This document shows positions 8,323-11,575 of a stretch of 64,000 nt of DNA, piece after piece. Made by a program: the position numbers and the translations under genes. Position 1 is the first letter of the stretch; each line of letters begins with the position of its first letter. The notes under the pieces are model-generated. The model made no database searches. It saw only the letters and a program-made list of their open reading frames with translations, and had not been told where the DNA came from. The DNA is from Artemia franciscana (lineage: Eukaryota; Arthropoda; Branchiopoda; Anostraca; Artemiidae), in contig NC_088868.1 in the NCBI RefSeq assembly GCF_032884065.1, positions 3,095,043-3,159,042 on the forward strand, in the 5' to 3' direction.

Positions 8323-9104
8323 CATGAAAAGAGAAACCACCAATGCAACAGCACACACACACAAAAGAGACAGAAGGAGAAAAGGAAGACTGTTTTCCTA
8401 AATTAGTGATTAATATAGACCAGCACTTGCAAGAGACCTTAACCCTACTCATCCATACAATCACATAGGTCAAACAGCATAGCCATACACAATCAACATA
8501 AAGAATAATCCATGGACAGGCAGTCATGTCGTCAATAAGTATAAGTCATCATTTACCAAACAATAGAAAAAATAATAAAGACAAATAATTCAGAGGCAAC
8601 AACCCAACACAAGGGCTCATCAGGGGAATACACTGGCCTATGTAGGGTTTCGCCACTTTAAATTCTCTACCCAGCCAAGTGTTGTGGCTACCAGAGAATA
8701 TCCATGGCATCCCCGTGTCCGGTATCACCCCAAAATACATCCCTATGAACGAAAAAAAAAAACCAGCAAATGTAAAACAACCAAGTAACACCAAAACAAG
8801 CTTATCCTGTTAATATATCCCTCTTTTTAGCACCAATAGGTAAACTAAATATAATAAATTTTGCCAAATCACAAATATTAACACATTGCAAAACACCTGA
8901 ATGAACTAAACAATTATAGAATTCATCATGACCATGTGGCTATTTTAAAAAAAAAATCCGCTCTATTAGAAACACAATTCAAAATAAATGGCGCTGCATC
9001 ATCATTTGTCGAACCTCCGAAATTAGTTGAAAATTTCTTTAAGTATTTCCAGATAATTCTTTTGATATTTATTTAAAAGTTCGTTATAATGAAAACTAAA
9101 TTCT

Positions 9105-10775
9105 TTAAAATTGCCAAGTTAATTTATTTGCAGAAAAACCCCTTGATATCAATTTTTGGCTTAAGATTTTACATCTATTTTTAAAATCAATATAATTACT
9201 ACAAATCCTTGCATAACGAAGTAACTGTGAGAAAAACGCAGAATATTTGATATTTGAGTGTATATTACTTTCAGGGAATGGGAAACTAATCACTTCAAAA
9301 TCAAAATCATCCGTTTTATTATACATTTTAAAACTTAATTTATTATTATCACAAATATTAACATTTAAATCTAAGAAATGATCTTCATGTCCAGCGCCAT
9401 GACTAGATTCAAGAGTAAGCTCTGATGGATATATATTTTTAGAAATATCAATGAAATCCTGACAATTTAAGACCAAAATATCATCTAAATATCTTTTATT
9501 ATTTGACAAAACATGTTTTCAATTATTTGGATTATTCTTATCCATCATATATTTATATTCTAGTTGACTTAAAAACAAGTCAGCTATAAATGGGCTGGCA
9601 TTCCCCCCCCCCATGGGAATTCCCACGATTTGCTTGTACAAATCACCACCAAATCTTATATAAGTATTGTATAAAACAAATTCTAATAACTCAAAAATCA
9701 TATCCAAGCTGTAACATCTCAAGTTAACTGTAGTATTAAAGCAATTTGTCCATATAGCTTTTTTATTATAAGTGTCTATTTTTAAGAACCTTTTACTAGA
9801 TAAGAGGAAAGATTTCTTGATAACAGTTCTTAAATTATCAAACACTGCATTAAGTGATAAATTAGTATACATTGTCGCAAAATCGAAAGACTCAATTCTT
9901 TTAGCTGAAACCATTGTTAAGGAATCTATCACCTGCAGTGAATTATTAACACTCCAATATGAATTGAAATTCGAAAATTTTTTAATACCAGAACAATAGG
10001 TTTTAAGTTTATTTACAATTTCCTTTAAAATTAAAGAGAGGTCAGTAGCAGCCATGCGGGTTGGGCATTTAGCTGCTCCAGCAATAAACCGTGGTTTAGG
10101 GGGATTCTTATGAAATTTTACAGTCCAATATAGGAAAGGGAACTTTTTATCATTGTCATTTATTTTAATATTAAAATTTTTTATAAATATTTTTTCAGTC
10201 TTTTCAATTAAATTCTCATCCTCTATATTTACCTTTTTGTAAACATTAGTTGTGCATAACTCCCTTTTTAAGATATCACAATACAGCTTCTGACAAATTA
10301 TGGCAAAATTATTATTAGCTTTATCCACTGGCACAATTACAAATTCATTCTTTAGATTAGCAATTGCTTGTTTAATCTTCGCATTATAAAATAATGATTT
10401 AGTGTTACTATTTTTTAAGTTAGAATATAGTTTATTTCTTATTCTACTAATAATTAAATTCTTCCAACTTTGAAAACTCTCTTTATTTTTATTCTCTTTC
10501 TTACACCACTTATCAATAAATAAATCAAAATCATTTTCCAAGCCATCAAGAACACTCGATGGTTTCAGATGATGAGAAAGACGGAAATTAGCCCCTTTAT
10601 TTATTATAATTTCAAGATCATCTTGTTTTATTATTGACAAGTCCCCTGTTATAACATGTTTATAAGTAGGATTTACAAATGGGCCAAGTTGCTTACAATT
10701 ACAAACCGGTTTCCAATTTATATCACTATCTAATCTTTTTAGTATTAAATTATAATTAAAAATAATTTTTCCCAA
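9105..10775 (-). pseudogene. Penelope-type reverse transcriptase (one in-frame stop)
   Basis: This is the RNA-directed DNA polymerase of the element. The N-terminal part holds 'FVIVPVDKANNNFAIICQK', a typical Penelope block, then 'LYWTVKFHKNPPKPRFIAG'. Motif A is 'FDFATMYTNLSL', motif B 'GIPMGGGNASPFIADLF', and motif C 'RYLDDIL' with both catalytic aspartates. A single TGA (about 9516-9518) lies 11 codons before motif C. The frame is identical on both sides (9519-10775 and 9105-9509). A run of ten G codes the glycines of motif B and may have expanded. At the start, a one-base shift near 10752-10765 separates this frame from the upstream linker. All motifs are intact, so decay is recent. Confidence 0.85.
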
Positions 10776-10859
10776 TAGTTTTTGAAAATTTATAAGTTAA
10801 AACTGGACTATCATTATAATTCAAATTACTAGGAAGGGCCTGTTTCACATGCCGCTGAT

Positions 10860-11575
10860 TTAAAATTTCTGGTAAATTAATATCTTCAATCTGTTACAAG
10901 TAAAATTAATAGGTAAATATAATCTGTTATCCTTATTACTAATCTTATCGAACTTTTTCTTTTTTGTAATAAATTTCGTTTTAGTTAGAATACAAATTGT
11001 ATCACATATTACTTTAAAATTATAATCAAGAGCTGTATTATTCTTAACAATCCAGAAAAGTTTGATTAAATTCCTCTTGGATAAATTATTTAGACATTTT
11101 ATTGCAGAAATCATACCCCTAGATTCAAGTAGCTGGCATAGATCTATAGAAAGCATATGTACATCTAATTCATTTTTTCTATTATTTTTCCTATGTCCTC
11201 TCGATCGTTTTTTACGTTTAGTAGGACAAGTAAAAGAAGGATGGTCCATAAAACCATCAATACATTTAACAACAACATGAGACATGTCACCATATTTTGC
11301 TACACGATCATTTAGCCCAAAAGGATAAGCTGTACCAAGAGTATGGATCCAGAAATCCTCCTGTTTACGTAGTCTATTATTCTTCTCATCTTTATTTAAA
11401 TTTTCTAATTCTAAATTTTCTAAAATTGTGACAGTTATATCTGATATGGAACATTTACCATTATTACAATGTTGAACTAGATAGTTATTAGTTTTTTCAT
11501 TATTAACTGTTGTCTTATGTCCAGAAAATCTTTTATATATATTATTAGTTGTTTCCCCCACATATTGTAGGCAGC
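10860..11575 (-). pseudogene. GIY-YIG endonuclease domain, N-terminal to the RT
   Basis: Reading from the (TA)n edge, the frame opens 'CCLQYVGETTNNIYKRFSGH'. That is the YIG half of a GIY-YIG nuclease with the conserved Arg (KRF) and His (GH). About 50 residues on comes 'QEDFWIHTLGTAYPFGLN' with the catalytic Glu. A basic stretch 'KRKKRSRGHRKNNRKN' follows. The GIY strand and any upstream zinc finger are cut off by the (TA)n. The frame ends at 10860, but the next reading frame stays open for about 30 codons ('HVKQALPSNLNYNDSPVL') up to the RT. So one base lost in a T-run near 10862, and a second shift, split what was one protein. The usual role is nicking the target for reverse transcription. 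Confidence 0.82.

Follow-up and report, generated by a model that had tools for sequence, protein, structure and literature searches.

A dead, 5'-truncated copy of a probable Naiad-type Penelope-like retrotransposon family between (TA)n tracts in Artemia franciscana

Canonical Penelope-like elements (PLEs) carry a GIY-YIG endonuclease C-terminal to the reverse transcriptase (RT). In the N-terminal-endonuclease PLEs, among them Naiad, the endonuclease reportedly precedes the RT within a single ORF, with a CxC motif in the linker between the two, and the RT is said to contain an insertion in the fingers domain. The Naiad endonuclease reportedly carries CCHH residues that Chlamys lacks. Elements with an N-terminal endonuclease are further said to form pseudo-LTRs and partial tandem and inverted copies, to favour microsatellites and to be devoid of a canonical hammerhead ribozyme. 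Selenoprotein Naiads exist in spiders and clams. A study of Poseidon, a PLE of Anolis carolinensis, describes nicking of AT-rich DNA and reverse transcription that starts inside the element's own RNA, the latter shown in vitro (PMC11167929), and work on rotifer Penelopes describes partial tandem copies (PMC3846280).

The window analysed here is a stretch of 64,000 nucleotides of the brine shrimp Artemia franciscana (NC_088868.1, positions 3,095,043 to 3,159,042). On its minus strand, running from 11575 to 8323, lies a 5'-truncated PLE with the GIY-YIG endonuclease ahead of the RT. This copy is 97.0% identical over 3.2 kb to positions 440-3651 of an intact relative, L001, and Tandem Repeats Finder showed it to be immediately flanked by (TA)n tracts, at 11576-11715 on the 5' border and at 8294-8322 on the 3' border. 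Since both ends abut these tracts, 8323 and 11575 were accepted as the true borders of the element, in agreement with the span first proposed. The minus-strand translation contained CCLQYVGETTN...EDFWIHTL, VCNCK (CxC), FDFATMYTNL, GIPMGGGNASP and RYLDDIL, so that the endonuclease block does precede the RT on one strand, as the original prediction had it. The 5' end of the copy, at the (TA)n tract, falls inside the GIY-YIG domain, which extends from residue 71 to about residue 165 of 919 and lacks its GIY half (11292-11575). The CxC motif (CNC, 10695-10703) is located in the linker that joins the endonuclease to the RT, and the approximate RT core, corresponding to residues 541-880 of L001 and used for the RT comparison below, occupies 9144-10166. 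Within this core are motif A (FDFATMYTNL, 9858-9887), motif B (GIPMGGGNASP, 9591-9623, with a lengthened G tract at 9603-9612) and motif C (YLDD, 9480-9491). The coding part had been predicted to end at 9105, but the coding match to L001 continues past a frameshift near 9110 and stops at 9026; the 3' untranslated part (8323-9022) leads to a 3' end that is common to the copies. Elsewhere in the window, a cluster of short repeats on TTGGTAATCAATTT / TTGATTACCAAAA was seen at 12300-12600, and a direct duplication of 5.1 kb (45189-50267 and 52802-57880, 99.8%) spans ORFs that we read as LINE-like and transposase-like. Further repeats pair 43909-45802 with 50267-52165 (99.3%) and 51546-52790 with 52177-53415 (98.7%).

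Searches of Pfam and NCBIfam with the fragments of the window copy matched neither GIY-YIG nor RT, and gave one sub-threshold chance match, to ESCRT-II. Recognition of the domains therefore rests on the nucleotide identity to L001 (97.0%). L001 (JAGXLU010000084.1) contains an unbroken ORF of 919 amino acids, and here the profile check that had been suggested for the window copy succeeded in part: Pfam GIY-YIG matched residues 62-137 with 25.4 bits (cut-off 22.6), while RVT_1 scored 13.8 bits on the RT core, under its cut-off of 29.6. The L001 protein has its CNC at residue 362 and RT motifs A, B and C at residues 634, 722 and 765, and no GIY-YIG follows the RT. Candidate CCHH residues, picked by eye and putatively metal-binding, are present in its endonuclease (C68, C71, H90 and H106); the window copy has lost C68, and its C71 stands at the 5' border. 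PDB sequence searches returned nothing useful, only two chance matches to ribosomal proteins (E 1.4 and 2.2), and scans of viral contigs, phages and plasmids found no relatives. L001 itself is 3.7 kb long and is a contig assigned to a 'Halanaerobiales' MAG from Great Salt Lake. Its protein has two matches in the shrimp genome at an identity that rounds to 100%, and by this likeness the contig is almost surely brine-shrimp retrotransposon DNA, a eukaryote contamination of the MAG bin.

We searched the 1.27 Gb shrimp assembly (6468 contigs) with the L001 protein and scored the best 50 of 7295 first-look candidate matches. All 50 were full length (1-918 or 1-919), with the endonuclease before the RT and 99-100% identity; 48 were free of stops, one contained a TAA and one a TGA. 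The 5' part missing from the window copy, for which the original prediction had looked to full-length copies, is present in these matches and in L001. Intact ORFs of 919-920 amino acids were present in 6 of the 20 loci that we fetched, in addition to L001. These loci were the 19 best genome matches after that of the window itself and one slightly lower match, a sample that favours young, long copies. Pooled dN/dS among the seven intact ORFs was 0.44, a ratio drawn from 21 non-independent pairs and biased downward to some extent by the choice of intact ORFs, and pairwise dS was 0.008-0.037. Judged by these substitution values, the intact copies are young and under some constraint.

Because the best-scored copies hold both domains unbroken, we regard the endonuclease and the RT as one unit. 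The original prediction had itself raised the concern that the GIY-YIG piece might belong to a neighbouring tandem copy, in which case the element could be a canonical Penelope with a C-terminal endonuclease. Partial tandem copies are indeed common in the fetched loci of the family, and a canonical Penelope family (L038-L040) exists in the same genome. We identified this family through a Pfam GIY-YIG search of the genome, in which 150 of 1778 candidates were scored and 15 loci examined; the top two of these matches resemble, in our reading, a host SLX1-type exon. However, the canonical family has its RT first and its GIY-YIG last, the intact ORF of L001 ends without an endonuclease behind the RT, and in 48 of the 50 best-scored of the 7295 matches both domains lie within an unbroken match of 918-919 residues. 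The unbroken ORFs already refute a canonical element fronted by the endonuclease of its neighbour, and we give that arrangement a very slim chance of being correct. The in-frame TGA at 9519-9521 could also be viewed as a selenocysteine codon, which would make the element a selenoprotein Naiad. In favour of this are the identity of the stop, the existence of such Naiads in other animals, and the single TGA in one of the best 50 full-length copies. The codon at this site in L001, however, is an ordinary sense codon and not one for cysteine, stops of any kind are absent from 48 of the 50 full-length matches that were scored (the best of 7295), and in five other broken loci with a single stop it is TAA or TAG. 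In addition, an Rfam search of window positions 8200-11800 gave no SECIS match at E<=10. Selenocysteine is refuted for the Artemia family by the stop-free copies and the sense codon in L001, and its probability is close to nil.

The preferred reading, a Naiad-type element, was also considered at the level of the RT. Among four sequences, one per group and all from one genome, a comparison that yields a ranking and not a tree, the element RT was 28.6% identical (79/276 columns, 19.0 bits) to that of the C-terminal-endonuclease Penelope, 21.4% (7.9 bits) to TERT and 18.4% (3.6 bits) to the LINE of the window. The canonical Penelope RT was closer to TERT (25.8%, 13.3 bits) than the element RT was, in an alignment where the TERT piece is shorter and some motifs are out of register. 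By sequence likeness the element RT is nearest to Penelope RTs. Motifs A and B are 87 residues apart in the element, compared to 66 in the canonical Penelope, 113 in TERT and 56 in the LINE; the spacing is compatible with a telomerase-like fingers insertion, and proof is not implied. A clade judged from architecture, and an RT so far from that of the canonical Penelope in this genome, would suit a Chlamys-type or otherwise new lineage with an N-terminal endonuclease. The candidate CCHH residues, reportedly present in Naiad and absent from Chlamys, are nevertheless kept in L001, and the host is an animal; we therefore consider such a lineage unlikely. Judged from architecture against eight features reported for the N-terminal-endonuclease PLEs, the Naiad-type assignment made in the original prediction is well supported. 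The family shows six of them: an N-terminal GIY-YIG in its intact copies, the CxC linker, candidate CCHH residues, partial tandem and inverted copies, a bias towards microsatellites in the form of (TA)n, and no hammerhead match. It has neither the GIY-YIG C-terminal to the RT that marks canonical PLEs nor, as in selenoprotein Naiads, an in-frame UGA read as selenocysteine with a SECIS element.

The search for a ribozyme covered window positions 8200-11800 and three tandem loci (L013, L014 and L020), and found no hammerhead at E<=10 in a run without a positive control. All the Rfam matches listed were under their gathering scores, the best being snoR11 in L013 (51.7 bits vs 80). Hammerhead-like and SECIS-like motifs had been suspected by eye in the 3' part of the element, and neither was matched in Rfam at E<=10.

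Alignment of the window copy to L001 showed 80 substitutions in 3199 aligned bases. The copy had been described as carrying two frameshifts and one stop; the single stop, the TGA, was borne out, whereas the alignment revealed three coding frameshifts, near 10893, 10770 and 9110. The G tract is also lengthened, in frame. This tract, in RT motif B, ranges from 7 to 14 bases among copies, with 10 in the window and 7 in L001, and the extra G residue in GIPMGGGNASP is accounted for by this variation in length. The site (window 9603-9612) falls together with breaks of the frame in a number of loci (e.g., L012, L014, L016 and L026), and the variable tract represents either a mutational hot spot or an assembly error. 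A locus on another contig, L010, is 98.7% identical to window positions 8294-14503, a span that takes in the flanks, and has the TGA in common with the window copy, indicating either a segmental duplication of an already dead copy or an assembly duplicate. The view that the window copy itself was recently active does not hold, given its three frameshifts, its stop, its 5' truncation and the second instance that shares its flanks; the signs of recent activity concern the family, and not this copy. We conclude that the element in the window is very probably a dead member of a Naiad-type Penelope-like retrotransposon family of Artemia franciscana that is young and high in copy number.

We examined the ends of the copies for signs of target preference. 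The 3' end of the element reads ...TTTTCATGATA. Across 21 loci, comprising the window and the 20 fetched ones, we located a 3'-end motif at 27 places, 10 of them unit-unit junctions and 17 elsewhere. Of the non-tandem 3' ends, 14/17 run into (TA)6+ within 25 bases, a count in which the window and L010, duplicates of one insertion, are both included; the three without (TA)n are L015, L025 and L028. In controls, (TA)6+ was found at 62 of 20000 positions drawn at random from the window and at 126 of 5320 in the outer flanks. A genome-wide count of the exact 25-base 3' end gave 3407 occurrences, and in 1849 instances it was followed directly by a 14-base TA run, while reversed-pattern controls gave 0. 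The remaining 1558 include tandem junctions and slightly differing ends, and the 3' end of the window copy, which differs from the 25-mer, is outside the 3407. The preference for (TA)n might in part reflect the survival of insertions at harmless sites. At the 5' side, 10 of the 20 main copies start at L001 positions 5-7 and 10 are shorter. Unit starts were directly preceded by the 3' end of another unit in 10 of 11 cases, and the eleventh, in L027, was preceded by what appears to be a short, altered piece of the 3' end. Fewer than 30 bases are left of the upstream unit at the L015 junction. Inverted partial copies were seen in L011, L022 and L029.

By analogy with Poseidon and the rotifer Penelopes, we infer a mechanism in which the endonuclease would nick a (TA)n tract and the RT would copy the element RNA onto the nick, beginning from the 3' end. 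Incomplete copying would frequently yield 5'-truncated copies such as that of the window, whose 5' ends might perhaps be joined to the tract via short matching sequence, and complete 5' ends could come from RNA spanning the junction between two units. The window copy would have decayed after insertion and subsequently come to exist in two instances with the same flanks, through segmental or assembly duplication. The family may be an unusually abundant, perhaps still mobile, (TA)n-preferring Naiad in which complete 5' ends form directly after the 3' end of a preceding unit; full-length copies might then be templated by tandem or circular RNA that spans the junction. We offer this last reading tentatively and put its chance at somewhat below even.

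If that reading is true, the dozens of near-identical intact copies would be a good natural source for biochemistry on Penelopes with an N-terminal endonuclease. The presence of both Penelope architectures in one genome makes elements with the endonuclease first and the endonuclease last directly comparable, and the (TA)n targeting was measured on thousands of 3' ends. A young Naiad family is documented here in a crustacean of use in the laboratory and in aquaculture. The genome paper on female Artemia franciscana (PMC11492255) does not contain the word 'Penelope'. A literature search, not exhaustive, found Artemia franciscana and Penelope mentioned together only in work apparently on microplastic fibres and, since 2021, Naiad, retrotransposons and crustaceans together only in a paper on an Orthoptera library.

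Among the systems to which the family can be compared, Poseidon is similar in its tandem copies and its preference for AT-rich DNA and, unlike the Artemia element, has a C-terminal endonuclease and a hammerhead ribozyme, as described in that study (PMC11167929). The canonical Penelope family that shares the genome (L038-L040) also combines a GIY-YIG with a Penelope-type RT, but its endonuclease comes after the RT, its A-B gap is 21 residues shorter, and its RT is only 28.6% identical. The likeness to the Naiad clade extends to the endonuclease before the RT, the CxC motif, the CCHH-like residues, the partial tandem and inverted copies, the microsatellite bias, the absence of a hammerhead match, the animal host and the high copy number. 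Compared to that clade, a strong (TA)n preference and the lack of selenocysteine mark the Artemia family, and we found nothing else that distinguishes it. The Artemia element adds a member to the already known Naiad kind, and its value lies in its abundance, its youth and its clear targeting of (TA)n.
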